Shown here one piece after another: positions 11,091-28,223 of a stretch of 64,000 bases of DNA (the stretch's first letter is position 1; each line of letters opens with the position of its first letter). The DNA is from Bacteroidales bacterium. GTDB lineage: Bacteria; Bacteroidota; Bacteroidia; Bacteroidales; F082. The stretch covers positions 1 to 64,000 of the forward strand of contig JAFYIE010000018.1 of NCBI GenBank assembly GCA_017538795.1. Direction: 5' to 3'. A program made the translations under genes and the position numbers. The notes beneath the pieces were generated by a model. That model saw only the letters and a list, made by a program, of their open reading frames with translations, was not told the DNA's origin and did no database searches.

Positions 11091-12158
11091 TTATTTGTCG
11101 GATTGCTCTGGTGGAAGTGTGCGGTTTTCCCAACGTTTGCGAGCTGCTTCGATGTTTTTGATGAGTTGTTCTCTTGATGGCAGCTCGGTTAGGTATTGGG
11201 CTACTTTGATGCCTGACTTGTCGAGTTGCAGGAGCTCGATTTGTTCTTCACTGCCTTCGGTGCAGAGCAACAGTCCAAGTGGTGATTCTTCGCCCGGTTC
11301 CATCTCATTTTGCTCCAGCCAACGGAGATAGAGTTCCATTTGGCCTTTGTAGGCTGCTTGGAAACGACCTTTTTTGAGGTCGATGGCGATGAGACGGTGC
11401 AAACGACGATGATAGAACAACAGATCGAGATAGAAATCCTCTCCATCGATAATCATGCGCTTTTGACGGGCAACAAAGCTGAATCCGTTGCCTAACTCGA
11501 TGATGAACTGCTCTAAATGGGCGACAAGACAATCTTCGAGGGTCTTTTCACTGTACATGCCTTTCAGACCTGTAAATTCTAAGAAATAAGGACTTTTGAA
11601 TACAAGGTCAGGAGTAAGAGTGTTGTTTTCACGAAGGCCGGTAAGCTCTTTTTTGATTAGTTCATCGGGTTTGCCACTGATGGCCGAGCGTTCGAAAAGC
11701 ATTCCATCGATTTCCTTGCGGAGCTGGCGAACTGACCAAAGTTCGGAAGCGGCAAGCGTTAGATAAAACTCACGTTGAAGTTCATCTTTCAATGGTATAA
11801 CTTCCACAAAATGAGACCATGACAATTGTCGCGACAGCTGCGCGACAATTTGAAAATCGGGTATTATTTGTGCAAATTGCATCATTCGACGGATGCTTTT
11901 TTCATCAAAACCTTTGGTGCCAAAATCTTCCTGTAATTGTCGCGACACTGTCACGACAATTTGTTTGCCGTATTCGGCACGTTCATTTCCAAGGACTTCG
12001 CGGTTGATACGTTCGCCGATATGCCAGTACATGAGGGTGAGCTCGGTGTTGACGTTGGCTGCGACACGGTTGCGGGCATCGTTGATGATTTGGCGCAGGT
12101 CGTTGACAAGCGGTGTAAGGCTTGGAGTTGGCAAAGGATTGATGTTGTTTTCGTCCAT
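11091..12158 (-). CDS. YhcG-type PDDEXK nuclease domain protein (DUF1016)
   Basis: This 355-residue protein has the two domains of the YhcG family: an N-terminal helical DUF1016 domain (INDARNRVAANVNTELTLMYWHIGERINREVL ... SWSHFVEVIPLKDELQREFY) and a C-terminal PD-(D/E)XK nuclease domain. The likely nuclease motif is FYLDLLFYHRRLHRL followed by IAIDLKKG, with the motif aspartates and a lysine in place. Family members often occur in mobile or defence regions, sometimes next to type I restriction genes; their role is poorly known. The ATG at 12158 is chosen because a TATTTTTG -7 box at 12184-12191 leaves little room for the longer frame (to 12194). It stands alone and leftward, at the edge of the accessory region. 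Confidence 0.8.
   Translation of the reverse strand: MDENNINPLPTPSLTPLVNDLRQIINDARNRVAANVNTELTLMYWHIGERINREVLGNERAEYGKQIVVTVSRQLQEDFGTKGFDEKSIRRMMQFAQIIPDFQIVAQLSRQLSWSHFVEVIPLKDELQREFYLTLAASELWSVRQLRKEIDGMLFERSAISGKPDELIKKELTGLRENNTLTPDLVFKSPYFLEFTGLKGMYSEKTLEDCLVAHLEQFIIELGNGFSFVARQKRMIIDGEDFYLDLLFYHRRLHRLIAIDLKKGRFQAAYKGQMELYLRWLEQNEMEPGEESPLGLLLCTEGSEEQIELLQLDKSGIKVAQYLTELPSREQLIKNIEAARKRWENRTLPPEQSDK
11824..11962. repeat. Two related inverted repeats inside the YhcG-type gene
   Basis: AATTGTCGCG (11824-11833) and CGCGACAATT (11841-11850) form a perfect 10-bp inverted repeat around ACAGCTG. AATTGTCG (11936-11943) and CGACAATT (11955-11962) form a second, with a similar core. Both lie in codons for IVAQLSRQL / IVVTVSRQL. 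They may be DNA-binding sites or only a consequence of the repeated peptide. Confidence 0.55.
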
Positions 12159-12183
12159 GATGTGGAATGATTTTTTACTTTTG

Positions 12184-12191
12184 CAAAAATA
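12184..12191 (-). promoter_or_regulatory. Promoter of the YhcG-type gene
   Basis: TATTTTTG on the minus strand, with ATTG 19 bases further upstream (12211-12214) as a near-consensus -33. The start codon chosen is 26 bases downstream. Confidence 0.65.
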
Positions 12192-12330
12192 CAACTTTTT
12201 GGAATAACAACAATTGTTATGATGCTTGTTTTTGTTGTTGGTTATGTATCAATGAATTGTGGAATGGTACATTTATTGCGATGGCATCACATTATTTTTA
12301 CTTTTTGTTTCTTCGTATTAAAAAAATTCT

Positions 12331-12363: not shown

Positions 12364-12642
12364 ATGGCAAGCATTCAAGATATTCACGCTTTTGAAGAGA
12401 AGATTTACGACATCGTTCAGGATTATATTGATGAAAATTACGATGTTGACGACGTTTTGGCTATTGGTATGCGTTGTGGTAGAATCAATATGAAAGCTGA
12501 TGCCAAAGAAGCAATTAAGATTGGAAAAACAACGGAAATTTATCCTCTGAAGGATTTGGTGCGTTTAGATGACGAAGGCCAAAAAGAGCCAGACGTGGAT
12601 AAGATAAACGAGATAGCTAACAGTTGGGTGTTTTTAGATTAG
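12364..12642 (+). CDS. Small conserved-looking hypothetical protein
   Basis: This is an acidic 92-residue protein (MASIQDIHAFEEKIYDIVQDYIDENYDVDDVLAIG ... VDKINEIANSWVFLD) with no signal peptide, membrane segment or recognisable motif. The composition is normal and it has its own Bacteroidota promoter, so I believe it is real. It converges on the vsr gene, and the two stop codons overlap (TAG at 12640-12642 on this strand, TAA at 12639-12641 on the other). It may mark the left edge of the inserted defence cargo, or be part of it. No function is proposed. Confidence 0.6.
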   Translation: MASIQDIHAFEEKIYDIVQDYIDENYDVDDVLAIGMRCGRINMKADAKEAIKIGKTTEIYPLKDLVRLDDEGQKEPDVDKINEIANSWVFLD

Positions 12643-13154
12643 AATCCATAATCAGCATCGGCTTCTGCTGCCATTTGGAAAGCGTCTTCATCAACCTTGA
12701 TGTACTCTTTGATTTTGGGGCTAATGGTTGCTAAACAATAATTGTGCAGCAATACCTCAACTTGTTGCATGGTGGTCTCAAATAGTTTGGTTACAAGTTC
12801 GCATTCCCAAAGAACCAGAACTTGCCAGCCATTTTCTTTTAAGACCTGATAGTTCTGCTTGTCTCTTTCCTGATTACGATGGATTTTTGTTTTCCAGAAT
12901 TCTACGTTTGACTTTGGCATTTTGAATTTTTCACAACCTTCATGACCATGCCAAAAGCAGCCGTTAACAAAGATGGCTGTGCGGTAGCGACGCATAACAA
13001 TATCTGGTTTTCCAGGCACACCTTTAACATTCAACCTATACCTATAACCATGAGTCCACAACCATTGACGCACCTTCAGCTCAGGCTTGGTGTCTTTAGA
13101 GTGGATGCGGGACATACATGTGTGCCGCTGTTGTTTTGTCATGATATCGGTCAT
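12639..13154 (-). CDS. vsr: Very short patch repair endonuclease
   Basis: The 171-residue protein is a Vsr endonuclease (PF03852). It has the N-terminal RHTCMSRIHSKDTKPEL motif, the catalytic region GVPGKPDIVMRRYRTAIFVN with the metal-binding aspartate, and GCFWHGHEGC with the histidines and zinc-site cysteines. Vsr nicks DNA at T:G mismatches made when 5-methylcytosine deaminates and so protects the sites of a Dcm-type methylase. Here it is the last gene of the operon that begins with a cytosine methyltransferase, nine bases after the AIPR gene, as expected for that pairing. It could also supply nuclease activity to the defence system. Confidence 0.93.
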   Translation of the reverse strand: MTDIMTKQQRHTCMSRIHSKDTKPELKVRQWLWTHGYRYRLNVKGVPGKPDIVMRRYRTAIFVNGCFWHGHEGCEKFKMPKSNVEFWKTKIHRNQERDKQNYQVLKENGWQVLVLWECELVTKLFETTMQQVEVLLHNYCLATISPKIKEYIKVDEDAFQMAAEADADYGF

Positions 13155-13163
13155 GTATTATGA

Positions 13164-15512
13164 TTATCCCTCAAAGCCTTTTTTTCTGAGTTTTTCAAGA
13201 TTTAGATAGAAAGCGTATTTCATTCTATCAGTCAAAGATTTACGACCGTGTACAACATCATCCATAACTTTCCATTTCCAATCTTCAAGAACACGTCTTC
13301 GACGATCCCATTCAACCATACACTCAACAAGCTCCAAGGTTATATCATTTGATGGTTGAAGCTTTGACTGGGAATTTTCATCTTTTGCAGGTTCCTGATC
13401 TGCCATTGTATCGGCTTCTTCAAGCAGCTCGATGTTGTGTTCACACACTGTTTCATACACTGTCATTGCTTTACGAATATCGTTTGGAGCAAACTTGTGT
13501 TTGAATTTAATCTTTGAAGCTGTATCACGAGCAATTGTTTGTTGATTGATACTCATACAACCTGATTCCTGACCCCAATCAGCAAACTTTTTCCATAATG
13601 GAATTGGTATAGATGTGATGATTCCCAGTTCGTGTTGCAAAGTTCTTTCCTCGTCTTCATCGGGTTCGGATATCACATTCCTTTTAGGTGGGTTGTTTGG
13701 ATCGATTAAGTCTAAAGCGATAGTATTAATATCGAAAGCCCAAGTGTGTTCTTTGACTTTTTCCCAGCATTCTTCTTTCTTTGCCCATTCAATATAATGC
13801 GAAACAGGTGACTCGTTTAAAATAAATCTATTCACTTGTTTCATCAAATCATAAATTACATCTGACAGCACTTGTGAAATTTCTTGATTTTGCCAAATTT
13901 TATATAGATTCAGCCTACCGTCGGTCAGCTTGTTTAATAGTGCAATAGTATAAGGCACTACAACTTGTTTCATTTCACCTATACAATAGTCGTTTTTCTT
14001 GGTGCCATAGCGAGCATCTGCAGTCCTAAACAATATGGCTTTGGAAATAGTATCCTCAAAAAAGACATTGTTAATCTTTTTTATATTTTCAGGCAAGTTG
14101 TCGTTGATGAATTTTGCATAGTTTTTTTCGTTGCCTCGAACAACTATATGTGGACCAATTACTAATTTTTTGCCGTCGTAAACCTCTTCGTATGTATTTA
14201 TGTATTTTGCCAATTCGACCTTGGTAAATACTTGTTTTGAAGGGTATTTATGCTCGAATGAGTTGAGACGGGTTTTGGTGAAGCCTTCCTTTTGACGCAA
14301 ATTCTTGTATTGTCCACGAGCTCTTTCAAAGAACCAATATGTTTGCATATTGTTATGAGCGGTAAGCGGTGTGAGAATGTAACGGGAAAGTTTTTCAAAT
14401 TCAACGAGATGAGGATTGTTAGCTGTAAAGTCGGCATCATTAACTTTATTCTGCGTATTCGCATACTTGGAAATCTCTGATACGATTTTACTAAATTGGT
14501 CTTGTTTTTTAATGATGGAGAATTTTACTTGAACATATATGTCGGAAATATCAGCTTTATCTTTTTTGTGAGTGTGATATATAGATGCAGTTGTTTGACC
14601 TCCGTTTACAATTTGGAGATTGCTGATCTTTTTGATATAATGACCTGTTTCGTCTAATTCAATATGGTCAGCAGTTGCAGCTATACCATTGTTGAATGCC
14701 AAGAACATGTGAGGTCTGTTTTTAATAGTTTCACGAATCCCCTTATTTATTTTTCCAGTAAATTGTAGGAAAGAACGAACGTTTTGTTCAAGCAGTCGTG
14801 CACCAAATCTTTCGTATAAATTTGCCAAGCATAGACCTGGTATAATGGCAATGTAAGCTTGATAATCTTCATTTTCATTACTTGCAGGAAGACATGGAAG
14901 AAGAAAATGTTCTTCCTCAAAGTTAATCTCAATAGGTACTCTGGATTGCTCAGATATTTTATAGATAAAGTTTATGTCAATGACACGATAGAAAATTTTA
15001 TATCCAGATATTTCAACGCTATCAGGGAATTCACCTTGGTAGTCACCGTTTGTGATAATAAAAGCATTAACACGAATTAGATTATTTCTTAATTCAGGAT
15101 AGCTACCGAGAGTATTTGCGAATTCAAATATTTGAGAGGATTCTGCGACTTCATTGGCATAGTCGTTATAGATGCATTTGCGAAAGAAATTTGTTATACG
15201 TGTAGCAGCGCGTTTTACTTCATCTTTTGAAATAGTCGGGATGTCTTCTTCGGCTTGGAATATTGACACGAACAAATCGACAGTTTCGTAGTTGTCGGAA
15301 ATAGCATAAGCATTTATTTTATGCTGATTCTTGGTTCCCAATGCTTTTTCGTCATAGGCAATGTCGGCATTCTCTGTTTCTCCAGCTTCTGCCAATAAAT
15401 CAACAACATATCTGGTAAATGCTTGTTCAAGAGATTCGCCATCTTCGTTAGCTATTTGCCTGGCTTGTATTTCTTGGATAAAAGATTTGTAAAACTTACT
15501 GATTTCTTTCAT
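13164..15512 (-). CDS. AIPR family protein (abortive-infection-type)
   Basis: The 782-residue protein belongs to the AIPR family (PF10592). The diagnostic core is MFLAFNNGIAATADHIEL followed by LQIVNGGQTTASIYHTHKK, then YANTQNKVNDADFTANNPHL. The first ~250 residues resemble other AIPR proteins and may carry a degenerate nuclease-like fold; the C-terminal 200 residues are charged and helical. AIPR is named for abortive infection phage resistance, and its biochemical activity is not clear to me. It overlaps the upstream PD-(D/E)XK gene by four bases (ATGA), so translation is probably coupled. Its place in a methylase/MORC/Z1 operon makes a restriction or abortive-effector role likely. Confidence 0.85.
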   Translation of the reverse strand: MKEISKFYKSFIQEIQARQIANEDGESLEQAFTRYVVDLLAEAGETENADIAYDEKALGTKNQHKINAYAISDNYETVDLFVSIFQAEEDIPTISKDEVKRAATRITNFFRKCIYNDYANEVAESSQIFEFANTLGSYPELRNNLIRVNAFIITNGDYQGEFPDSVEISGYKIFYRVIDINFIYKISEQSRVPIEINFEEEHFLLPCLPASNENEDYQAYIAIIPGLCLANLYERFGARLLEQNVRSFLQFTGKINKGIRETIKNRPHMFLAFNNGIAATADHIELDETGHYIKKISNLQIVNGGQTTASIYHTHKKDKADISDIYVQVKFSIIKKQDQFSKIVSEISKYANTQNKVNDADFTANNPHLVEFEKLSRYILTPLTAHNNMQTYWFFERARGQYKNLRQKEGFTKTRLNSFEHKYPSKQVFTKVELAKYINTYEEVYDGKKLVIGPHIVVRGNEKNYAKFINDNLPENIKKINNVFFEDTISKAILFRTADARYGTKKNDYCIGEMKQVVVPYTIALLNKLTDGRLNLYKIWQNQEISQVLSDVIYDLMKQVNRFILNESPVSHYIEWAKKEECWEKVKEHTWAFDINTIALDLIDPNNPPKRNVISEPDEDEERTLQHELGIITSIPIPLWKKFADWGQESGCMSINQQTIARDTASKIKFKHKFAPNDIRKAMTVYETVCEHNIELLEEADTMADQEPAKDENSQSKLQPSNDITLELVECMVEWDRRRRVLEDWKWKVMDDVVHGRKSLTDRMKYAFYLNLEKLRKKGFEG

Positions 15513-16519
15513 AAGCCTTGAATATCTGTTATAACTTGGTTTTCCGGCACTAAATAGTCGTCACACATAGCAAGAACTATGGAATAAGTTACATTGCCCA
15601 CCCCATCACGTAACTCGCTTTCTTTAATGCGAGGGAAAGCCTTGTCAATTTTATAAAGTTTCTCAAACCGTATCTGATAAAATCTGTCTTTATACAAATT
15701 TGCCTGAGCATCAGCATAACCAGCTTCAAATAATTTAGCATTGAACGCTGTTAATGCAGGAACATCAGATGATAAGATTTGTCGTATTACTTCTATTTTG
15801 TCGCAAAGAGTTTGTCCATTGGCTTTTGATACTTCAACAGAACAATGATACAAATACAATGACTCAAACAAGCTTTCATCCAATTGCCGTTCACTACTAA
15901 TCTTTACTTCCTGCGGATTACTTGTAGCCGTTGTTTTTACTTCGACAGCCCAACTTGTTCCTTGGAAATCACGTAAAGCCTTATCAACGCCAACCCATGT
16001 ATGTAAAACGTCGGAAGGCTGAAGCTTAGATTTAGTTAGAATCTTTTGCAGAAAATGAAGTTCGCCATACAGACCTTGTTGTTCAGCAGTAGAAAGTCCG
16101 TCTGAATTGATTTTTTCAAACATAGATTTCCACTTTTCCATCTGATTTATAATGGTGCGAACTCTCTTTTTTTCAGTTGTGATATCAATGACAGATTGGA
16201 TAACATTATCGCAGAGAGCCGCAAATATGTCTTTGTTAAACGGTGTAACCAATTGTATTGATAGCAGGTTGGAGTGATTGAATGCTGTATCTTGGAACAG
16301 AGAAACCCTCAGATCTTTTAGGTTTTCGAAAGCACTAATATCTATGCGTAAAGTATCGCTTATGACAAAAGCAATACCATAGAATCTATCAGGATGTTGG
16401 TATGTAACATAGATGTGGAATGGTTTATCGCTTTTAAAAAGCTTTTTGTATAGTCCTTTTTGTGGACTTTGTTCCATTTCCTCCCATAGTTCCAGGATGT
16501 GATAGTTATTCTCTGTCAT
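15509..16519 (-). CDS. PD-(D/E)XK motif protein (DUF4420-like)
   Basis: This 336-residue protein matches the PF14390 'PD-(D/E)XK motif' family. The putative active site is intact: glutamate at about residue 153 (GLYGELHFLQKIL), aspartate near 184 (ALRDFQG) and the E-V-K triad at 193-195 (SWAVEVKTTATS). These residues in this order are typical of restriction-type nucleases. In the operon it overlaps the Z1 helicase gene by 14 bases and the AIPR gene by four. I infer it is the main cleavage subunit, with AIPR or Vsr as alternatives. The first ~130 residues form a family-specific beta-rich part of unknown role. Confidence 0.85.
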   Translation of the reverse strand: MTENNYHILELWEEMEQSPQKGLYKKLFKSDKPFHIYVTYQHPDRFYGIAFVISDTLRIDISAFENLKDLRVSLFQDTAFNHSNLLSIQLVTPFNKDIFAALCDNVIQSVIDITTEKKRVRTIINQMEKWKSMFEKINSDGLSTAEQQGLYGELHFLQKILTKSKLQPSDVLHTWVGVDKALRDFQGTSWAVEVKTTATSNPQEVKISSERQLDESLFESLYLYHCSVEVSKANGQTLCDKIEVIRQILSSDVPALTAFNAKLFEAGYADAQANLYKDRFYQIRFEKLYKIDKAFPRIKESELRDGVGNVTYSIVLAMCDDYLVPENQVITDIQGL

Positions 16520-19340
16520 ATTCTACATCATTTTCGTTGTCAAAAGAATCTTCTGTTGAAGCAATATCCGCAATAGTGTTCACTTGATATGAAACTGCCT
16601 CTCCCGTGTTGGTGTGTGGGAAAGAGATCGCGAATCCAATAAACGGTTCGTCGTCTTTAGAATAAACCTCTGTTCCCGGTATAATGCTGCCATTATTATC
16701 AACTATGTTAGAACCTTCAGGATTTAAAGGATAGATGATAAGAAGAGGATTTTTTTCCGAACGGAATTTTTCGCGAACTATTATAGGAGCTGGATAATCA
16801 TGCTCCCACGTCTCGCCTTTACCTTCTTTTTCTTTCTTTGTTAATTCCAGAGCTTTTTCCAATACTTCGGTGTCCAGATCAATAAATTCTTCTTTTTGAT
16901 TACCAACGATGTGGTTCTTTCTAATGAAGTAAGTATCGAAATCGCTTATATCTTTGGCTCGATTACGTGTCCAGCAACCGACGTTCATTTTGTTAGAGAA
17001 GGTGTGGTTTGATGAAGAATCGTTTTTGCTTAATAATGCTACACGCCACGAGGTCAACTCTCCTTTTAAAGATAGTTTCTCAATGTATTGGCAAATTAAG
17101 TCAAGATTAACTTTCTTCAACTCGGCAGGTAGTTTGAAGTTTTGGAAATAATCGCAAATTGTTTGAGGAGAAACATTTCGCCACAAATAATTGTTGTCTA
17201 TTTTTTCTGCTTTTCCCAAAGATGAGATGAAATTATCGGTAGCAATCAGATTACTCCTTTTAACAGTTTTTGACCTTGATAACTGATATGTTTCAATTAA
17301 ACGACCAGCCCAAGAAACTTGGACGGTTCTTGAATTGTACATTTTATTAACCGCAGTAATCTGAAGAACTCCTGGATGTGTACGGACTTTAAGCGCATAA
17401 TCATTAGGTGTGCCGCCAGATTCGTAGAGATAATTGAATTCATCACGAAGTTCTTCGCTGGCTAATGTGATGTGTCTAAACCATTCGTTTAATTCACTAC
17501 TTGTGAATAGACGGCATAAGTCAACATATCCCGGACGATATCCGAACCAACGTCCCATTTGCATCAATGTGTCGTACATTTTTGATGCGCGTAAGAAATA
17601 ACTAACAGAAAGACCTTCCAATGTTAAACCTCGTGAAAGTTTGTCACCGCCGATAGCAATAACAGAAAGTCCTGTTTTTTCATTTAATTGATAATCAATA
17701 ATGTCTCCTGAAGAGCCATTTATTGATTTAACTGTTATTTTTTGAACGGCGTTGAATAACTTGCTTTTTACTGTATCCCAATCGTGAACCTGGATTTTAT
17801 TATCAATGGTTGCAAGACTCGAGTTGAGAATCTTGTTGGATATGGTTCTGTATGAGTAATACTCTAATCCGTCAAATTCTATATTGTCGTCTTCAAAAAT
17901 TTGTCGGAACTCTTCCATAATGAAAGGATCGTCGGCTTCAATTTCTTGTTTATAGAACTTGAATTGACGATCAACCAGTTCCTTTATGGCGTTTTGCCAG
18001 ATTTGATAGCGCGATACGTGAATCAGCATGGAATTATGCTTGTGTTCTTGACCTCTGACAATACGTATTGCACAAGTTATAATAAAACACTTTATGGCAA
18101 TTTTCAGTGATTCAGGAATGTCGCCAAAAGTTGGTTTGACATCGTCTTTATGATGACCTTCAGGAACGAAATTACTGTAATCATTTATTGGAATAACAAT
18201 AGGTAGAAGATTGTTGTCGTCTTCAGTTGGGGTTATTGAAGTGCCAAAGACTTTGTCGGGACCGATGTAATTACTTGGTGCCGGAATATTGATTATAAAA
18301 TCACGTGGAAATAGATCGTCTTTAATAGTTGATGCTATAAAGATATTGGCAAATGGTGTTGCCGTATAACCAACGTACGCAGAACGAGAGAAAAGGCTGA
18401 TAATGCTTCTTATGCCGTTGTTGATTGCCGTTGGTGTTTCGTTAGGGTCTTTTTTGGTATTTATAGAAGCATGGTCTGCTTCATCATCGATGATAAGCAG
18501 TGCCTTTTGTGTTATCTGTGCATCATTGCTTTTTTGCTTGAGCCATGTATGCAAACGTTTTAATACGGAGGTGTTTTTCTTAACGACAAGGATAATCGGC
18601 TGCGGAGCGTTAAAGTTGAGACCAGTTGCGTTTGCCGCTTTACTGGTGAAATCACCTTTATCCAGACTTGTTGTATAAGAGTGAGCTATGGCGTTTTCAA
18701 ATCCAACTATTTTACCGACTCCAACCTTGGTCGTTAATCTGGTTTCATAATTTTTATCAGCACCAGTATCAAATCCAAGGAATCCTTCATCAATACGAAT
18801 TTGTGTTTGAGAACGCAGATTGTTGTGAATGCCTGCGAGGACAATAATTACTTTGAAACCAGCATCGGCAGCTTTGCAGATAAGGCCTGTGTAATTGGCG
18901 GTTTTGCCTGATTGAACCTGACCGACAACTAATCCCTTTTTAGAAATGACGATATTGTCGCGTTGAGGATTAAAAAGGTGATCGAGGATGCTGTCGGTTA
19001 AATCGTCATTATTTTGTATTACTGTATCGGAAAATCCTTTTTGTTCAGCAAGATATTTTTTATATCGAGTCCAGAATTGCCAATATCCGGGTTCGTGGTT
19101 TGATCTAAAATCCTTTAGCCAAGGTTCACGTCGTTCTCTGCCTGTTAATATTTGGTAATTATCTACGCGTGTACTATAAAGAGTGCTAAGTTCTTCAAAT
19201 AATAATTGTTTATCAATGCCATTGAAAAACGGCATGGAACAAACGTTATCTACGATATTTTTTAAGAAATCGTCTGTAACCGATGGCGAGGAAATCATGT
19301 TCCTGCATACATTTATTGCTTGTTCCAACAATTCATTCAT
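16506..19340 (-). CDS. Z1 domain SF2-type helicase/ATPase
   Basis: The 944-residue protein has the signs of a superfamily 2 motor with a Z1 domain (PF10593). The Walker A motif is GQVQSGKT (about 140-147), Walker B is LLIIDDEADHAS (281-292) and the TATPF motif III lies at 326-330. Motif V/VI-like sequences LSRGLTLEG (568-576) and QMGRWFGYRPG (594-604) carry the arginine-finger region. The Z1 region lies roughly between 380 and 650; about 290 C-terminal residues are less familiar. Z1 proteins are known almost only from predicted restriction-like operons with MutL/MORC-type ATPases. The start overlaps the upstream ATPase gene by four bases. It probably translocates or remodels DNA for the nuclease subunits. 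Confidence 0.9.
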   Translation of the reverse strand: MNELLEQAINVCRNMISSPSVTDDFLKNIVDNVCSMPFFNGIDKQLLFEELSTLYSTRVDNYQILTGRERREPWLKDFRSNHEPGYWQFWTRYKKYLAEQKGFSDTVIQNNDDLTDSILDHLFNPQRDNIVISKKGLVVGQVQSGKTANYTGLICKAADAGFKVIIVLAGIHNNLRSQTQIRIDEGFLGFDTGADKNYETRLTTKVGVGKIVGFENAIAHSYTTSLDKGDFTSKAANATGLNFNAPQPIILVVKKNTSVLKRLHTWLKQKSNDAQITQKALLIIDDEADHASINTKKDPNETPTAINNGIRSIISLFSRSAYVGYTATPFANIFIASTIKDDLFPRDFIINIPAPSNYIGPDKVFGTSITPTEDDNNLLPIVIPINDYSNFVPEGHHKDDVKPTFGDIPESLKIAIKCFIITCAIRIVRGQEHKHNSMLIHVSRYQIWQNAIKELVDRQFKFYKQEIEADDPFIMEEFRQIFEDDNIEFDGLEYYSYRTISNKILNSSLATIDNKIQVHDWDTVKSKLFNAVQKITVKSINGSSGDIIDYQLNEKTGLSVIAIGGDKLSRGLTLEGLSVSYFLRASKMYDTLMQMGRWFGYRPGYVDLCRLFTSSELNEWFRHITLASEELRDEFNYLYESGGTPNDYALKVRTHPGVLQITAVNKMYNSRTVQVSWAGRLIETYQLSRSKTVKRSNLIATDNFISSLGKAEKIDNNYLWRNVSPQTICDYFQNFKLPAELKKVNLDLICQYIEKLSLKGELTSWRVALLSKNDSSSNHTFSNKMNVGCWTRNRAKDISDFDTYFIRKNHIVGNQKEEFIDLDTEVLEKALELTKKEKEGKGETWEHDYPAPIIVREKFRSEKNPLLIIYPLNPEGSNIVDNNGSIIPGTEVYSKDDEPFIGFAISFPHTNTGEAVSYQVNTIADIASTEDSFDNENDVEYDRE

Positions 19341-20815
19341 AGCTCATCTATTATATCTTCGTAATAATTAAATGGTTCGATGGATTTCAGATATGCTTTT
19401 GCTTGAACATCTGACATTCCCTGAGCCAATTGATTTTCATACATTGTTGCCAGCATACTCTTGACAAGATTTGTGTCCATATCAGAATAAGGCTGTTTCT
19501 GTTCAGCGTCATTCTGGGCTTTGTCAATATATATGGTTTCTGTAGGAATCGCTTCTTCTATAAACTTCAACAATGTTTCGATTGCCTGTTCTGGTTTAAC
19601 TTCGGCCATCTTTTTGATATGTTTGATCATATCATGGTCGCGATTAACGACAAATGACCATTTGTTGTCTTTTTTCTTTTCAAGCCACAAAGGTTGAAAA
19701 CAAACACCAGCTTTTTGTTTGAGAATTCTTCCACGATGGCGATATACTTCACAACCAGCAGAACGAACTTCATTGGCATAAGAACGCAGTTGCTCAAGAC
19801 ATTTACTTGGAGGATAAGCTTTGGACTTTTTTATATCAATTTGCCAATCGAAGTCAAGAGTATTAGGCAAGTCAATTTGAATCCGCACCAATTTATAATG
19901 TTCTTCTTTTCGGAAAAGTCCGAGCCAGTCGCCAGCAAGTAAAAGACGATTACCACGATATACATAGAATCCTTGTTGAGCTGACCATCCGTTGATGCCT
20001 TCAGCACGTTTGTATGCTGCTTCGGATGAGAATTGATTTCTATGAGGAAGAATATATCCTTTCATTTTGGCACCACTACCTAAACCAATACTTTCTTCTG
20101 GTCGGTTTTGTGTGGCAGGCTCATCTGTGCAAAAAGGATTCCAAGGTTCGATTGGATGTTCACCCCAAAATATGGTTATGCTTTTATTCTCCAAAAAGCG
20201 ATGGAATGTCATTTCAAGATGACGTTTTACTCTGTCTAACGAATGAGAGAACTTTTCTTGTGCGTTTTGATTGGTTTCGCTTGTTTCTGGAGGAACAACT
20301 CTATCCAAATCAGTCCAAATTACAATTGTCCCTGATTTTTTGTCATCCAGAGCGTGTTTGAATTCATCTGGAATCCACTGTATGAGTTCCCATTTATCAC
20401 TTTGAGCGATGTAGTCCAAGTCCCAAGACCAATAAACAGGAGAATAACCTTCTTTACGACTTATAACTGAAAGCTTACGACATTGAGAAAAAGAAGCGGT
20501 TTTTAGACCTAATCCAAAACGACCAAGGTCGGTTGCGCTTCGGTCGTCCAGTGGGTTTTGTCCACCAGGGCAAAGAGCTTGAACAAGCTCTTCATTATTC
20601 ATTCCGCATCCATCATCACCAATGGTGATTATAGACTTACCACCACGCCAAAAGCGATTTAGACGTATGTTTTTAGCACCAGCTGATATGGAGTTGTCTA
20701 TAATATCAGCGATGGCTGTCTCGAGACTATATCCAATAGCACGAAAAGTCTCGATCATTGAAGAGGCTTTTGGAATTGCCGATTGCTTTCTTATGTTATC
20801 GTAGTCTAACTCCAT
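19337..20815 (-). CDS. MutL/MORC-like GHKL ATPase
   Basis: The 492-residue protein opens with a GHKL ATPase domain. The N box is ETAIADIIDNSISAGA (about 32-47), the G1 box ITIGDDGCGM (63-72) and the G2 box DLGRFGLGLKTAS (96-108). After the ATPase and an S5-like region (GFYVYRGNRLLLAGDW ... IDLPNTLDFDWQIDIKKSKAYPP) the rest is helical. This is the layout of prokaryotic MutL/MORC ATPases from predicted restriction-modification operons (Iyer, Abhiman and Aravind, 2008). ATP-driven dimerisation and clamping on DNA are inferred from MutL and MORC relatives. The gene starts two bases after the methyltransferase stop and overlaps the Z1 gene by four. Confidence 0.9.
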   Translation of the reverse strand: MELDYDNIRKQSAIPKASSMIETFRAIGYSLETAIADIIDNSISAGAKNIRLNRFWRGGKSIITIGDDGCGMNNEELVQALCPGGQNPLDDRSATDLGRFGLGLKTASFSQCRKLSVISRKEGYSPVYWSWDLDYIAQSDKWELIQWIPDEFKHALDDKKSGTIVIWTDLDRVVPPETSETNQNAQEKFSHSLDRVKRHLEMTFHRFLENKSITIFWGEHPIEPWNPFCTDEPATQNRPEESIGLGSGAKMKGYILPHRNQFSSEAAYKRAEGINGWSAQQGFYVYRGNRLLLAGDWLGLFRKEEHYKLVRIQIDLPNTLDFDWQIDIKKSKAYPPSKCLEQLRSYANEVRSAGCEVYRHRGRILKQKAGVCFQPLWLEKKKDNKWSFVVNRDHDMIKHIKKMAEVKPEQAIETLLKFIEEAIPTETIYIDKAQNDAEQKQPYSDMDTNLVKSMLATMYENQLAQGMSDVQAKAYLKSIEPFNYYEDIIDEL

Positions 20816-20817
20816 AA

Positions 20818-22092
20818 TTATAATTGTTCTGCGATTTGTTCTGCGATTTGTTCTGCCAATAATACAGGAACGGCATTCCCAATTTGTTTATATGCCGCAC
20901 TTCTTGTGCCTTCAAAGAAGTAGTCGTCTGGGAATGATTGCAAACGAGCTGCTTCACGAATTGATATAGAGCGAACGTTCTCTGTGGTTGGTTTCGGATT
21001 TGGATAAATATAGTAATGGCCGTCCATTGCTATATGTGCAACAACTGTATGACTACATCCGTTAGGATTCACGACAGAGAATCTGTTAAGAAATGTTTCT
21101 TTGTTCTTATGTTTTTGATGGTCGGCAGGGATTTCTTTGTATGATAGTTGTTTTCCTTCTTGCAAGTATTTTTTTATAGCCCAGACATAAATTTCACGGT
21201 CATTCAGATTGTTAGGTCTGGCAATGTGTTGGGTTGTGAATGGAATTACACCGCGAAGATTATTCACTTGTAGATACCTCATTTTAGATAAATCCTTGGT
21301 GTAATGAACGGCACCACAAAGTGTGCCTTCGCCAGCCTTTAATTTTGGCAAATCGGAAAACAAATCTTTCATGACCTTGTAATTGTTTTCTTGTTTCTGA
21401 AAATCAGGGTAATGATAATTAGTTGGATTGCCATTACCATCATGAGTTTTCCAACCTATGATAATCATACGTTGGCGTTTTTGCAGAACGCCAAAGTCTG
21501 ATGCCAATTGGATTTCCCCTCTTACTTCGTAGCCCAAACCCCTGACCAAATTCTGCAAATCACGATATGGTTCACCGTTTTTGGCCGTTCTGATGGAAGG
21601 AACGTTTTCAAATACAAACATTTGTGGATTGTATTTTTCCAAAAACTGAACATAGAATTTGTACAAGTCATTACGAGGGTCGGATTCAATTTTCTTTCCT
21701 AAACGAGCACGACCAGCTACGGAATAAGCTTGGCAAGGTGGACCGCCAATTATGATGTCGATGGGATGTCCATCTGCAAGACGATCAACTTTATCAAATA
21801 TATCTGGGATGGTTTTCGCACCAATTTCGGCTTGAATAACGCTGTCAATTATTTTGGATGGAACTTGTTCCCAGAGCTTTCTCCCATCTTCTTTTTCGTG
21901 TTTGTTTAGAAGATAATTTTCATACACTTGAAGTTGGCCGTGTTCACGCAAATAATGAAATGCTGCTCGTGTACGTAATGTATCACAAGCAAATTTTTCC
22001 ATTTCAATATGTGCAACCGGTTCAAATCCAGCCCTGATAAACCCTTCAGATAAACCTCCAGCACCTGCGAATAAATCAATAAATCTCGGCAT
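20818..22092 (-). CDS. DNA (cytosine-5-)-methyltransferase
   Basis: The 424-residue enzyme has all main C5-methyltransferase motifs: I (DLFAGAGGLSEGF), IV with the catalytic cysteine (GGPPCQAYSVAGR), VI (FVFENVPS), VIII (KRQRMIIIGW), IX (RLQSFPDDYFF) and X (YKQIGNAVPVLLAEQ). The target-recognition region lies between VIII and IX, so the sequence specificity cannot be read. An insertion between motifs I and IV carries a charged segment (NHKEKEDGRKLWEQ-like). It heads the six-gene operon, and the start at 22092 gives the standard MPRFIDLFAG N-terminus. It probably marks self DNA for the downstream MORC/Z1/nuclease proteins. The C-terminus ends in a 12-bp tandem repeat (AEQIAEQIAEQL). Confidence 0.93.
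   Translation of the reverse strand: MPRFIDLFAGAGGLSEGFIRAGFEPVAHIEMEKFACDTLRTRAAFHYLREHGQLQVYENYLLNKHEKEDGRKLWEQVPSKIIDSVIQAEIGAKTIPDIFDKVDRLADGHPIDIIIGGPPCQAYSVAGRARLGKKIESDPRNDLYKFYVQFLEKYNPQMFVFENVPSIRTAKNGEPYRDLQNLVRGLGYEVRGEIQLASDFGVLQKRQRMIIIGWKTHDGNGNPTNYHYPDFQKQENNYKVMKDLFSDLPKLKAGEGTLCGAVHYTKDLSKMRYLQVNNLRGVIPFTTQHIARPNNLNDREIYVWAIKKYLQEGKQLSYKEIPADHQKHKNKETFLNRFSVVNPNGCSHTVVAHIAMDGHYYIYPNPKPTTENVRSISIREAARLQSFPDDYFFEGTRSAAYKQIGNAVPVLLAEQIAEQIAEQL
20827..20856 (-). repeat. 12-bp tandem repeat at the methyltransferase 3' end
   Basis: TTCTGCGATTTG is repeated 2.5 times at 20827-20856, encoding IAEQ IAEQ at the extreme C-terminus. Copy-number change would alter the tail by four residues without a frameshift. 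Confidence 0.8.
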
Positions 22093-22186
22093 AATCCTGA
22101 ATAATAAAATCAAAAACAACAACCTATCTTCAGATTATGTATATAACCTATAAAATGGTTTAAAATACGTGCTCATAGTATCATGG

Positions 22187-22268: not shown

Positions 22269-22295
22269 TAAAAAAAAGAAGCCCCGAAGGGCTTC
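22269..22295 (-). terminator. Terminator of the replication-gene operon
   Basis: GAAGCCC / GGGCTTC closes a CGAA-type tetraloop and is followed on the minus strand by about nine T. It sits just after the DUF3987 gene and separates the element core from the defence operon, which therefore has its own promoter. Confidence 0.9.
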
Positions 22296-22302
22296 GATAA
22301 GT

Positions 22303-24117
22303 CTATAGCTTTGAATATTGACCGTGTGCCTGGTGCCTGAGCAACCCTTTTTCGCAGAATTTGTTGATTTGCTTTTCGGCAGTTTTGGGGGGTATTTTCA
22401 ATCGCTCAGCTATTGAAAGATACATCTTGCGGTCGAAGTCCTGTGGTAGGGTGTCGAAAAACAATTGGCGGAGTGCTGGCTGGCCATTACCTTTTGAAGA
22501 GCTTTCATCGTTTATCAATAAATTGTTAAACACTCTTTTAGTATGTTTTAAAAGCACTTTAGCCATAGTTATGGACGTGTTGAAATCGGTGTCGTTGCAT
22601 ACTATTACTGGAGCAATATCCATACCATCCATAATTCTTAATGTTGTGAGAATCATGGCGATACGGAAGGTAATTAAACCAAGACGACGCACAGAGGCCA
22701 CAATGTCTTCGCCGAACATGTCGTAATACTCTTCTTGGGATTGTTCGAAGAAAGCATTAAACGATTCTTCTTGAGGTTTGCTTAATGCAAATCGAATTTC
22801 ACCAGATTTTTCAAGTATTTTATAAAATGCAAAAAATTGTTCTCCAAGATGTTCGAAATGTTCGTCAAGAGTTTCGGTGCTGTCGGAAAACACATTGTTC
22901 CATTCCAGGCGCATGTTCATGTAATAAAAGATAAAACGGCTGAACAGTCCGTTTTCGGTGTCTGGGATTAGAGAGAAGATTTGCCGAGGAGTACCAGACA
23001 GAACAGCCGAAAGGCGTGGTCGCTGGAGTTCGACGTACTCGCGGTCTTTACGCCTGGTGTAGGATATCATCTCGTGATGGAAGGCTTTTCGGAAACCGTC
23101 GGAGAAGTTGCCATAATCAGACTTGAAGGTGTTTGCCAAAGTGTCGCCTTCTGTCTCAAAAATAAGACCGACCCCACCATTATCGTTTAACATCTGATAA
23201 ACAGAAGTGGAGCTGCTGTTGGCCGGAATGAGGAGCGTTTTGATAGGAGGTTCCTCTGGCTGTTCGTTGTTTTTCTTATCAAGAGCATATTCGTTTTGCA
23301 GACGTTTATATTCTTTCATCTCTTCTGCGTATAGTTTTTTCAGATTATCGTGAATGGGCTTGATAAGGTGACGGCAAAGGGTTAAACGACCTTTTCCGGC
23401 GGAAGCTTGTGCGGATACAAACAGAAAGAGATTAGGAAAAACCTGACGCTCAGCATACTTGCCGGAAACATTCGGCAAACAAGCGGATAGAGAAACCAGC
23501 GAGCCCAATATTAACAAATCGGCATCCTCAAAATTTTTAGCTTTATTGATGACTTGCGTAAGCAAACCAGGAAGAAAGCTATAAATTTCCTGTGAGAAAG
23601 TGGGCATGGGTTCATCAGCTTGTTTTGGGAACTCGATTTCTTCCATTTCCCCAATATCCCCAATTTCCCCACGTGGGGATTTTGGGGATATTGGGGATTT
23701 CGAGTAGTTTTTTTCAGAACTAAAAGTGTCGTAGATTGTTATTCCAGCTTCTTTTGCAAGGTGAAATAAAGTTTTGATGGTGATGCCGTGACCATGAGCG
23801 TTAAGACAAGCGGAAAACTGCTTGTCAGTTTCTTTTTCATCATACTTTGGATAGAAGCGGCTTAGACGTTGATAGTAGGAACGACCACATTCGCCGAGGG
23901 CATCGGCAAGCGAGAATCCCATATCGCGCCACGAGGCATAATCGGGGGCGATGTCGGTGCCAGAGGATTCGACGGCAGAAACAAGTTGTTCTATTTTTTG
24001 TTCCTCTGATATAAAGGGTGTGGTAGAGACAATAGAGGTTTTAGGGGTAGCAACAGTGGCTGATTCCCCTTGAGGGGAATGCAGCCAACTGTTCGGATCA
24101 AATGGTTTCTTACTCAT
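22303..24117 (-). CDS. DUF3987/PriCT-2 domain replication protein
   Basis: The ~604-residue protein has a PriCT-2-like segment near the N-terminus (YASWRDMGFSLADALGECG ... ACLNAHGHGITIKTLFHLA) and then a DUF3987 domain (PF13148). The DUF3987 region includes a P-loop-like motif (SAQASAGKGRL) and the PNSSSTSVYQ / FETEGDTLANTF region (DNA-processing ATPase-like). The C-terminus has a winged-helix-like AERLKIPPKTAEKQINKFCEKG. In Bacteroides mobile elements this gene follows a VirE_N-type gene and is thought to act in element replication or primase function. The start two bases after the preceding stop is preferred over 24147. A strong terminator follows. Confidence 0.85.
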   Translation of the reverse strand: MSKKPFDPNSWLHSPQGESATVATPKTSIVSTTPFISEEQKIEQLVSAVESSGTDIAPDYASWRDMGFSLADALGECGRSYYQRLSRFYPKYDEKETDKQFSACLNAHGHGITIKTLFHLAKEAGITIYDTFSSEKNYSKSPISPKSPRGEIGDIGEMEEIEFPKQADEPMPTFSQEIYSFLPGLLTQVINKAKNFEDADLLILGSLVSLSACLPNVSGKYAERQVFPNLFLFVSAQASAGKGRLTLCRHLIKPIHDNLKKLYAEEMKEYKRLQNEYALDKKNNEQPEEPPIKTLLIPANSSSTSVYQMLNDNGGVGLIFETEGDTLANTFKSDYGNFSDGFRKAFHHEMISYTRRKDREYVELQRPRLSAVLSGTPRQIFSLIPDTENGLFSRFIFYYMNMRLEWNNVFSDSTETLDEHFEHLGEQFFAFYKILEKSGEIRFALSKPQEESFNAFFEQSQEEYYDMFGEDIVASVRRLGLITFRIAMILTTLRIMDGMDIAPVIVCNDTDFNTSITMAKVLLKHTKRVFNNLLINDESSSKGNGQPALRQLFFDTLPQDFDRKMYLSIAERLKIPPKTAEKQINKFCEKGLLRHQAHGQYSKL

Positions 24118-24119
24118 AA

Positions 24120-24674
24120 TTATAACAGATTTTGGTTGATGAAACAATCAGGGTCGTGAGGAAGGAAACAGGCGCGAGAAACGTCTTTGCCAGATTGGTC
24201 AACCTCAACAGAATAGGTTTGTTTTAGATAGTTGGCGACGGCACGGAAATAATCGGAATGATTAGTTTGAGACAAATCAATATTGATTATCCATTTGAGA
24301 CCATCGCCAGAAGGAGAGCGAAACAGCAATTGTGTTTCGAAGTATTCATCTTCAAGTAGTTGAGCGCGAAGCGCATCAAGGTTTTTTAGATGATCGAAAT
24401 CGAGACACAACAAGCCGGAGTGTTCAATCAAATTTTTATCGTTTCGCTTTGAGAAAACGCCGGAGAAAGTACAATAGTCGAAGTTGGCGGCTTTGAATTC
24501 GCGAGCCATCTTAACATCGCCAATCATGCGGAGTTTTGTGGTGGCTTCTTTAGCCTGATAACCAACAATATAATTATAGGTGTCGAGCAGCGTGAAATTA
24601 GCCGAAGGTCTGGTGTTGATGATTGGACGGCTGAAAAATGAGAACCGAGCCAATTTATTTCCTTGGTTTTCCAT
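24120..24674 (-). CDS. VirE_N / BT4734-like protein
   Basis: The 184-residue protein fits the PF08800 (BT4734-like, formerly VirE N-terminal) family, with VFSKRNDKNLIEHSGLLCLDFDH, LLFRSPSGDGLKWIINID and the C-terminal YSVEVDQSGKDVSRACFLPHDP. The D-x-D and S-P-S-G-D-G motifs are reminiscent of primase-polymerase folds, and it is usually encoded directly before a DUF3987 gene, sometimes fused to it. The pair is a hallmark of Bacteroidota integrative elements. It overlaps the HTH gene by 20 bases. Confidence 0.85.
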   Translation of the reverse strand: MENQGNKLARFSFFSRPIINTRPSANFTLLDTYNYIVGYQAKEATTKLRMIGDVKMAREFKAANFDYCTFSGVFSKRNDKNLIEHSGLLCLDFDHLKNLDALRAQLLEDEYFETQLLFRSPSGDGLKWIINIDLSQTNHSDYFRAVANYLKQTYSVEVDQSGKDVSRACFLPHDPDCFINQNLL

Positions 24675-25014
24675 AGTCGTAACGGATTTGATTCATTTTG
24701 TAATGGTCGGCCAAGATTTGCTGGATGTCTTTGCGACGGTAGTAAATCTTGTTGTTGATACGAGAGTATGGCAAGGTACCATTAGAGCGGAGCGTCTGCA
24801 GGGTGCGGATGCTGATGTGGAGTAATAGCATTACGTCTTGGTTGTCGAGCCAATCCTCGAGATTGTCGTCGGACGGATTTGTGACAGTTGGATTGACGGA
24901 TGTTGTTTCTCCTTGTTTGATGCCGAAGTGTTGGCGAAAGCCAACGGCGAGAGGCTCGTTGCTGTTAGCAAAGTAGTCCTGAAGGATTTCTCCTAATAAA
25001 CGTGGCTTACTCAT
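24655..25014 (-). CDS. Small helix-turn-helix (MerR/excisionase-like) protein
   Basis: The 119-residue protein has a C-terminal HTH_17-like domain (DVMLLLHISIRTLQTLRSNGTLPYSRINNKIYYRRKDIQQIL), the winged-helix form found in excisionases and in the small regulators of Bacteroides mobile elements. The first 50 residues are low in motifs. It overlaps the next HTH gene by four bases and the VirE_N-type gene by 20, so the four genes 22303-25373 form one operon. A role in excision or in controlling the replication genes is inferred from position. Confidence 0.75.
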   Translation of the reverse strand: MSKPRLLGEILQDYFANSNEPLAVGFRQHFGIKQGETTSVNPTVTNPSDDNLEDWLDNQDVMLLLHISIRTLQTLRSNGTLPYSRINNKIYYRRKDIQQILADHYKMNQIRYDYGKPRK

Positions 25015-25373
25015 TTCAGGCCTCCTTTCTTGCTGTTAACGAATTGCAAGGCTTCGGCATGAAGTTCGGCTGCTGTTTTGCGCTTATCGGTTTTGAGCCA
25101 GGTGTCAATTTCTGATTTCAGGAATTGCAACTTCTTTCCTTTTTTATGATAAGGAATTGCATGTTGGCCAATCCAGCCATAAACTGTCTGCTTGGCAGGA
25201 CGGTCGGGAAGGTATTGGCATAGTTCTCCCAAGTTGAGCCAGCGATCGGATGGCTCGACGGTGGTTGTTTGAGATGTTTGAAGTAAAAGTTTAACTTCTT
25301 TTACTTCGCTGAGGAGCATTGATACCGCTTGCGGTAGCTGCTCGAAAGTTAATTGTTCGTCTTGAAAAGACAT
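25011..25373 (-). CDS. Helix-turn-helix domain protein, first gene of replication operon
   Basis: The 120-residue protein has an N-terminal helix or coiled coil (QLPQAVSMLLSEVKEVKLLL) and a HTH_17-like domain (WLNLGELCQYLPDRPAKQTVYGWIGQHAIPYHKKGKKLQFLKSEIDTWL). Similar small proteins precede a second HTH gene and VirE_N/DUF3987 genes in Bacteroidota elements. It is probably a DNA-binding regulator or excisionase. The 140-base gap upstream contains the terminator of the neighbour and a 22-bp palindrome. Confidence 0.75.
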   Translation of the reverse strand: MSFQDEQLTFEQLPQAVSMLLSEVKEVKLLLQTSQTTTVEPSDRWLNLGELCQYLPDRPAKQTVYGWIGQHAIPYHKKGKKLQFLKSEIDTWLKTDKRKTAAELHAEALQFVNSKKGGLK

Positions 25374-25421
25374 GGCGATAATTATTTTAGTTAAACAATC
25401 GCTTTCTTTTCAAGTGGCCAC

Positions 25422-25458
25422 GAAAAAAGAAAACCGCAGTCCTTTGTGGATTGCGGTT
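25422..25458 (-). terminator. Terminator of the 291-residue protein gene
   Basis: AACCGCA (25432-25438) pairs with TGCGGTT (25452-25458); on the minus strand it is followed by TTTTCTTTTTTCG. It stands between the 25512-26387 gene and the HTH-primase operon. Confidence 0.8.
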
Positions 25459-25484
25459 GCAAAATTCAGAATAAACTTACCCTA

Positions 25485-25506
25485 CAACTGGTTGTACAAC
25501 CGGTTG
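25485..25506. promoter_or_regulatory. 22-bp palindrome, candidate operator
   Basis: The perfect 10-bp palindrome GTTGTACAAC (25491-25500) is flanked by CAACTG and CGGTTG, extending the dyad to 22 bases with a single mismatched pair. It lies just 3' of the 291-residue protein gene and upstream of the HTH operon. A binding site for one of the HTH proteins is possible. Confidence 0.5.
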
Positions 25507-25511
25507 GAAAT

Positions 25512-26387
25512 TTAGTATTGTTTATCTTTGTCTATTGATATTGAGATATTTAGGTCTGAAAATATTTTGTTTATTTCTGATATTTCTTTTGAATGATAAT
25601 TTGTCAAAGTAATACCTTTCTGTGCCTCATTGTAAATCTTATCATAATTTCTTCCGGTAAGAAATGCTATAAGTTTGCAAATCTTTGTCAGGTCATTGTA
25701 TGCTTTCCCGCTTTGCATTTTGCGGAGCATCTCCATTATTACAACAGAGCGTACTTTTGTGGTTGAAGTGTTTTTGTCACCATCAATTTCAACAACATTG
25801 TTGACGGATAGGTTTTTTTCTCGTTGTATCAGTGCTAATTCATCTTCGATTTGCTGCATAATATTTCCTTTGGCTTTTGCTTGCTTGAATCGAGTTAGAA
25901 TATCAGCATAAAACATTTCTCGGGTGTTCAGATCAGATATTTCGTCGGCTTGTTTCTTAATCTGGTTGAAACTTTTTGGCAAAGATTGTATGGATAACTC
26001 TTCTTTTAATAATGGTTCAAAATATTGGAAATATAATGGATCAACCACGCTTTTAATTTTGTGTAAACAAAAATCAATATGTGAGTTTGGACTATCTGAA
26101 AAATAGAGAATGACATACACGCAAGCAAAAACAATTGCTGTTTCATAATCCAAAAATAATTCTTGTGTTTTGGATATGAGAGATTGAACCTTAGTTTCCG
26201 GGTGTTTTTCTTTTTCAAAACTTTCACACAAATAATATGCTTGATTGAAAATTTCTATAGGATTGCGACGAAGAGGGATGATGTCTATGTCATTGTTTTG
26301 CAAAGACAACAAAACTTTATATATACGAGAGTTTAGTTCGTTGTTTTCAATGTACTCGTCAATGTCATACTTTTTAGTAAATTTCAT
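25512..26387 (-). CDS. Hypothetical protein of integrative element
   Basis: I do not recognise a named family in this 291-residue protein. It is helical and charged. The C-terminal 80 residues (SVVIMEMLRKMQSGKAYNDLTKICKLIAFLTGRNYDKIYNEAQKG ... EINKIFSDLNISISI) resemble a segment often found in uncharacterised proteins of Bacteroides conjugative elements. There is no signal peptide or membrane helix. It lies seven bases downstream of the integrase gene and has its own terminator, so it is probably cotranscribed with the integrase and may help recombination or its control. Confidence 0.65.
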   Translation of the reverse strand: MKFTKKYDIDEYIENNELNSRIYKVLLSLQNNDIDIIPLRRNPIEIFNQAYYLCESFEKEKHPETKVQSLISKTQELFLDYETAIVFACVYVILYFSDSPNSHIDFCLHKIKSVVDPLYFQYFEPLLKEELSIQSLPKSFNQIKKQADEISDLNTREMFYADILTRFKQAKAKGNIMQQIEDELALIQREKNLSVNNVVEIDGDKNTSTTKVRSVVIMEMLRKMQSGKAYNDLTKICKLIAFLTGRNYDKIYNEAQKGITLTNYHSKEISEINKIFSDLNISISIDKDKQY

Positions 26388-26394
26388 AATGATA

Positions 26395-27651
26395 TTATTT
26401 TTCTGGTTTGATATTTATCTTAATTACCTTAGCTGCCTTCTCCTTTTTCTCATCAACAACTTTGGCGTAAATCTGCGTAGTGCGGACATTGGTGTGACCG
26501 AGCATTTTGCTGACGGTGTAGATGTCGGTGCCTCCTGTTAATTGCAAAGTGGCATAGGTATGACGGAAGCAGTGGAAGGTGATGTGGCGATCAATGCCAG
26601 CATCTTCAATCCAGCGTTCTAATGGTCGGGAAATCCAGGAAGGGTCGGGTAAATCTTCGAAAACCAATCTGTTGGGTTCTTGCCGCTCACCACATAGTTT
26701 ATAAGCTTGCTCGCTGATAGGCATATACTCAACGCCTTTAGTTTTCTGCTGGGTGAAGTTAAGACGATATTTTTTGCCTTCCTGCTGAATCTCACCCCAG
26801 CGGAGCTTTTGGATGTCGGAGTGACGAAGCCCGGTGAGGGCTGAGAATAAAGCTGCACGTTTTAATATAGGTGTATCGCATGGAGTTTCGGCAAGAATGT
26901 TTAGTTCTTCGATTGTCAAGTGTTCGCGTCGGCTTTCCTGACCTTGAATGTTTTTCGCTTTTGCAGCTAAATCAATGGTCAGATAGCCATCGATGAAGGC
27001 TTGCTTGAGCCCGGCTTTAAATATGCTGAAATAGGTTGAAGCTGTGTTTTGTGAAACAGTGCCTTTGCGATTTCCTCCACAAGGCGCAGTGAGCATATAG
27101 TTTCGGAAATCTTCGATGAATTTCATGTTGATTTGTGAGAACAGGATAGTATCGCTGTTGGCAAAGAGTTTAAGTAATTCATAAACTCGAGTCCAGTTGA
27201 CAATGATGGATTGCGATGAGTTCTTGTGCCGCTTGATGGTTGTCTTTTTGAAATATTCAAGGAAATCGCACTGTGAGCGTTCGTTTTGCTCGGCAAGTTC
27301 TGATTCTTTATCTGAGTAAAGTGCGGCGTTGTCATATTCATGCTGGCGGAGCTTGCGGATGTTGTCGGCATAGATGCATGCCTCTTGGTCGATTTCGCTC
27401 TTGCACATTATAATGCCGTTGACATCGCGCTTGGGCTTGAATGTCTTGCTGGTTTCGGTGGTGCGAGCTGTGCGTGACTTATCCCAAATAGGGGTGGTGA
27501 CAGAACGGTTAATGGCTTCAATGACACGGCTGGCTTTTTTGCTGCCTGGCTTGAAAACAGGGTAGCTCTCGATGATGAGATACCACTCGTTGTGATACTC
27601 TGACTTGCGGAGTTTTACCGTGACTTTGGTGTTACTAAGAGGTTTCTTCAT
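26395..27651 (-). CDS. Tyrosine recombinase/integrase
   Basis: The 418-residue protein has an arm-binding and SAM-like core-binding region followed by a catalytic domain. The tyrosine-recombinase residues are present: R at about 275 (ALTGLRHSD), H and R at 360 and 363 (HCFRHTYA), H at 386 (GHTNVRTTQ) and the tyrosine nucleophile at 395 (IYAK). The family is the one common in Bacteroidota integrative elements. It overlaps the upstream zinc-finger/HTH gene by four bases. It probably catalyses integration and excision of the 22.3-28.2 kb element, perhaps with the defence operon as cargo. Confidence 0.93.
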   Translation of the reverse strand: MKKPLSNTKVTVKLRKSEYHNEWYLIIESYPVFKPGSKKASRVIEAINRSVTTPIWDKSRTARTTETSKTFKPKRDVNGIIMCKSEIDQEACIYADNIRKLRQHEYDNAALYSDKESELAEQNERSQCDFLEYFKKTTIKRHKNSSQSIIVNWTRVYELLKLFANSDTILFSQINMKFIEDFRNYMLTAPCGGNRKGTVSQNTASTYFSIFKAGLKQAFIDGYLTIDLAAKAKNIQGQESRREHLTIEELNILAETPCDTPILKRAALFSALTGLRHSDIQKLRWGEIQQEGKKYRLNFTQQKTKGVEYMPISEQAYKLCGERQEPNRLVFEDLPDPSWISRPLERWIEDAGIDRHITFHCFRHTYATLQLTGGTDIYTVSKMLGHTNVRTTQIYAKVVDEKKEKAAKVIKINIKPEK

Positions 27652-28223
27652 GATTGGCTGTATTTTTGTGGATTAAACACTTTGTCGATTTCTACCTTTG
27701 GCACATATACGAATCTTCCTTTTTGGCAGATCGGGATGCTCATTCTGCGGATGGCTTTGTAAACTGTGGAATCGCTGATGCCATATACTTTTGACACTTC
27801 GCCGATAGTGTAGGAATCGGATGAATCGAATTTATAGTTATTTGCTGGCTTTGGGGTCGGCTTTTCTTTGACGGTGGTTTCGACTACCGGGAACATGCTT
27901 TCGATATGGTCACGACTGACACGCGTGAGGCGTTCACCAAGATTGATGGCTGGAAGTCTTCCGCTTCTTATGAGGCGGTAGATGGTGTCACGCGATACGC
28001 CAAACAAGTGGACTGCTTCTGCGATGGAGATGTATGGTCTGTCTTGTGGAATCTGTGCCACTACTTCCTGACGCTGTTGCTCTTTTTTCTTTTCTCTCTT
28101 TTTGGCTCTATATGCTGCTGTTTTACAGCGTTCGGAGCAGAATCTGGAATAAAGGGTTTTGGCAAGGAAGGTTTCGCCACACATTTCGCATTTGCGTTCT
28201 AATTTGTATTTACTTGCAGGCAT
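27648..28223 (-). CDS. Zinc-finger and double-HTH protein (excisionase-like)
   Basis: The 191-residue protein starts with a treble-clef-like zinc finger (CEMCGETFLAKTLYSRFCSERC), then a basic stretch. Two HTH_17/excisionase-type domains follow: ISIAEAVHLFGVSRDTIYRLIRSGRLPAI and YTIGEVSKVYGISDSTVYKAI. This layout occurs in proteins encoded directly before integrase genes in Bacteroidota elements, where a role in excision or integrase control is likely. It overlaps the integrase gene (ATGA). Repeats that could be its binding sites lie in the 150 bases upstream. Confidence 0.75.
   Translation of the reverse strand: MPASKYKLERKCEMCGETFLAKTLYSRFCSERCKTAAYRAKKREKKKEQQRQEVVAQIPQDRPYISIAEAVHLFGVSRDTIYRLIRSGRLPAINLGERLTRVSRDHIESMFPVVETTVKEKPTPKPANNYKFDSSDSYTIGEVSKVYGISDSTVYKAIRRMSIPICQKGRFVYVPKVEIDKVFNPQKYSQS

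Follow-up and report, generated by a model that had tools for sequence, protein, structure and literature searches.

The first 64,000 nucleotides (nt) of contig JAFYIE010000018.1 of a Bacteroidales bacterium (F082; assembly GCA_017538795.1, positions 1-64,000), hereafter the window, carry a six-gene locus that is a predicted methyltransferase-headed, MZA-like restriction operon. The mzaABCDE (MZA) system was reportedly described by Gao et al. in 2020 as an anti-phage system. The six tightly packed genes of the window form a relative of it with a methyltransferase in front, as scored with Pfam, PADLOC profiles and NCBIfam equivalog models:

20818..22092, minus strand: C5-cytosine DNA methyltransferase, 424 amino acids (aa) (PF00145 8.5e-63; best PADLOC profile DrmMII, 498 bits, 3.8e-150)
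19337..20815, minus strand: MzaB-like MORC-type GHKL ATPase, 492 aa (PF13589 3.3e-30; PADLOC MzaB 3.6e-107)
16506..19340, minus strand: MzaC-like gene (PF10593 1.2e-82; PADLOC MzaC 1.1e-179)
15509..16519, minus strand: MzaD-like DUF4420 PD-(D/E)XK nuclease, 336 aa (PF14390 9.2e-77; PADLOC MzaD 4.6e-25)
13164..15512, minus strand: MzaE-like AIPR protein, 782 aa (PF10592 2.4e-90, PF22879 2.7e-37; PADLOC MzaE 8.2e-82)
12639..13154, minus strand: Vsr mismatch endonuclease, 171 aa (TIGR00632 150.7 bits, cut-off 97.85)

The NCBIfam equivalog models of MzaB-MzaE all match, but below their cut-offs (412.9 bits against 850 for MzaB, 714.5 against 1500 for MzaC, 141.1 against 420 for MzaD, and 368.4 against 1050 for MzaE), with scores of one third to one half of the required values; hence the locus is MZA-like, yet not MZA under NCBI's rule. 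The comparison set comprised 80 related loci, 63 of them complete, and MZA-like operons are present in Bacteroidota, cyanobacteria, Chloroflexota, Bacillota, alphaproteobacterial plasmids and metagenome-assembled genomes of methanogens. A sequence-only reading of the window had described the same six-gene operon as a predicted defence system acting by methylation-guarded restriction or abortive infection. Its gene identities are all confirmed by the profile matches, MzaB, MzaC, MzaD and MzaE being the best PADLOC profiles of genes two to five, and the co-occurrence survey finds the gene set conserved beyond this genome. Its interpretation was sound, and is supported in part, but it underestimated prior knowledge.

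Motif invariance was judged per protein in alignment rows (67 for the methyltransferase, 73 for MORC, 77 for the MzaC-like protein, 73 for DUF4420, and 36 for Vsr). In the DUF4420 protein, E153, D184, E193 and K195 of the E153-D184-ExK195 site (15935-16063) are invariant; of the four central proteins, it is the only one in which an intact nuclease site is recognised, as judged from sequence. The N-box of the MORC ATPase, D37..N41, lies at 20693-20707; D37, presumably at the position of the catalytic glutamate of MutL, is unchanged in all rows and is also present in relatives headed by a sigma factor. The MORC motif GFYVYRGNRLL (residues 282-292, 19940-19972) fits the S5 motif GhXhhpXXRhl, and DTLMQMGRWFG of the MzaC-like protein (residues 590-600), invariant in all rows, fits the superfamily 2 (SF2) helicase motif DThhQXuRhFG. 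Both patterns, together with an E-D-ExK nuclease, are given for the third MORC operon type of Iyer, Abhiman and Aravind (2008; PMC2292703), where a cytosine methylase and Vsr are frequent and AIPR is named in a figure legend. All of these features are found in the window operon.

In the methyltransferase, the motifs PCQ (21730-21738), ENV and RxR are unchanged across its rows; an alternative TTG start is possible at 22122. A C5 methyltransferase takes the head position in 61 of the 63 complete loci and the opposite end in the remaining two. An mzaA-like sigma factor, searched for with a query like the proteins of the sigma-headed loci L122 and L126, was found in the operon of none of the 80 related loci, the sole sigma match (L070) being at the locus edge on the opposite strand. 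Both observations speak against the strongest rival explanation, that methylation is idle in the action of the core genes, as such constancy of the methyltransferase would be hard to explain. This rival is nevertheless a serious, though clearly less probable, alternative: the sigma-headed relatives keep the same four genes and have the methyltransferase elsewhere, next to a restriction-enzyme gene, while its position in L122, at the tail of the same gene run, weakens the rival slightly. Moreover, the methyltransferase shows little co-variation with the core proteins, and that of L049 has been swapped: in the target-recognition region (in the window set by us at 21058-21447), it shares only 12-14% with the methyltransferases of relatives whose core is 78-83% identical. 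The most changed core protein of L049 is AIPR, with unusually divergent patches at approximately residues 81-140, 181-240 and 541-580 (L046 numbering). CCWGG specificity, suggested by analogy to DrmMII or Dcm, was dropped, identity to E. coli Dcm being just 27% over aligned positions; no methyltransferase relative with known specificity was found among the sequences searched.

The AIPR protein was modelled with AlphaFold (predicted local distance difference test, pLDDT, 81.7; predicted template modelling score, pTM, 0.51), and two domains are proposed:

14943..15431, minus strand: AIPR N-domain, PD-(D/E)XK fold with the active site lost
14415..14879, minus strand: AIPR core, ParB/sulfiredoxin-like domain

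In the N-domain, the D ... QxK site of active PD-(D/E)XK AIPR nucleases was not found, N67, V82 and I84 replacing D, Q and K of other AIPRs. In the core, NNG and NGGQT (14592-14606) are invariant, and testing for the ParB/sulfiredoxin (Srx) fold gave a positive result; the second fold comparison, with VIA, covered chains ranked by Foldseek, which yielded no match with E < 0.001 for either the whole model or the core. In outline, AIPR resembles an inactivated nuclease fused to a domain that may act as a nucleotide switch. Profile-profile alignment of the core with DUF262 gave no significant match (hhalign probability 0.2-0.4%, equalled by unrelated control families); the best stretch aligned NGGQT with DUF262 DGQQR and was kept as a motif resemblance only. 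Compared with the ParB/Srx-type proteins SspE, GmrSD and DndB, the AIPR core motif lacks their arginine, the core is fused to a dead PD-(D/E)XK domain, and it has no significant profile similarity to DUF262.

The family name, and the D-QxK nuclease site retained by 14/14 other AIPRs sampled (outgroup sequences), would fit an abortive-infection scheme in which AIPR is the toxic effector and the remaining proteins form its sensor. Such a scheme is rather unlikely here, as the pseudo-nuclease reading takes AIPR off the list of obvious nuclease toxins.

The window operon differs from MZA in its head gene, which in MZA is the sigma factor MzaA (Miller, Stern and Burstein 2022, PMC9523054), in Vsr, and in AIPR, which extends by approximately 186 residues past the MzaE profile match. 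The "Type II" putative defence system of the same paper has an associated transcriptional regulator (an association, not a core gene), whereas there is none among the six operon genes of the window, the nearest helix-turn-helix (HTH) genes (24655-25373) being part of a primase/integrase module. The available part of that paper does not mention Vsr in connection with this type and prints the domain as DUF4220, while Pfam gives DUF4420. Iyer et al. (PMC2292703), as far as their text was available, give AIPR no domain assignment. DISARM class 2 shares with the operon DrmMII, the best profile of the methyltransferase, but none of DrmA, DrmB and DrmC is among the PADLOC matches of the other five proteins encoded in the operon, which were listed in full; the methyltransferase and YhcG were each covered to 25 matches, and PADLOC was not applied to further neighbours.

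The window Vsr aligns with E. coli Vsr (1cw0) at 4e-28, and its D51 and H69 are unchanged in all rows. Of 42 complete loci of full length that have 900 bp or more on each side, 24 have Vsr. It is on the strand of the operon when upstream (13 loci) and in 6 of the downstream cases, and in reverse orientation downstream in 5, and it behaves as an accessory to the operon. Tracking of the methyltransferase by Vsr is not supported (distance r 0.24, against 0.39-0.54 with the core; 29 loci).

The methyltransferase-MORC gap exceeds 400 nt in 19 of the 63 complete loci; in the window it contains no insert. Ten representatives were scanned, and the genes in the gap include those for a NOV_C protein, for a double-HATPase paraMORC/kinase-like protein and its partner, and for CARF-kinase-AAA and DUF2357/PDDEXK_7 proteins, as well as an IS21 pair. 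In a sequence search (individual positions not checked), open reading frames (ORFs) matching the NOV_C protein occur in 16 related loci, and ORFs matching the paraMORC-type protein likewise in 16. The paraMORC/kinase-like gene lies between methyltransferase and MORC in L017, L025, L030, L034, L061, L075, L081 and L125, frequently with the partner gene.

Upstream of the operon, the following features were identified:

22270..22295, minus strand: terminator-like hairpin (22278-22295) and T run, immediately upstream of the operon
22303..28223, minus strand: mobile-element module carrying the operon (Pfam)

The hairpin and T run lie between the operon and the primase gene; the window has two terminator-like sites against 0.4 expected. 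The module consists of a DUF3987/PriCT-2 primase, a BT4734-like gene, two small HTH_17 genes, a further gene without assignment, a tyrosine integrase (26395-27651) and an HTH gene, and dnaK is found at 28436-30376. L012 and L020 also have the module in front of the operon, parts of it occur in L006, L007 and L056, and dnaK is close to the locus in L007, L020 and L054. This recurrence of an integrase/HTH/primase module by dnaK suggests a dnaK-adjacent integration hotspot in Bacteroidales. Location on an integrative element, and the presence of both a MutL-like ATPase and Vsr, would also fit a DNA-repair or mobile-element maintenance module (with methylase and helicase) instead of defence, which we consider highly improbable.

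Directly downstream of the operon is a DUF1016/YhcG family PD-(D/E)XK gene (11091-12194, minus strand; PADLOC candidate PDC-S02, 1.4e-123), likely a second defence gene of the same island. A 92-aa ORF (12364-12642, plus strand), with no Pfam match, is convergent with Vsr and overlaps its end by 4 nt; its homologues in L015 and L054 are on the methyltransferase side. Three 90-nt direct repeats (7951-8220) lie within a large gene (6939-9716) with a Beta_helix_3 match.

No mechanism for MZA-like operons was found in the available literature, which did not cover Gao 2020. What goes beyond the published accounts compared is AIPR as a pseudo-nuclease and ParB-like protein, plus the exchangeable methyltransferase. 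The former gives AIPR a testable role (nucleotide binding, clamp formation), while an exchangeable methyltransferase with a constant core raises the question of whether the methyltransferase lends the system its restriction specificity. Prokaryotic MORCs have been linked to the origin of eukaryotic MORC ATPases (Iyer et al. 2008, PMC2292703, in the part available), and a bacterial MORC machine, once worked out, would bear on the eukaryotic ATPases too.
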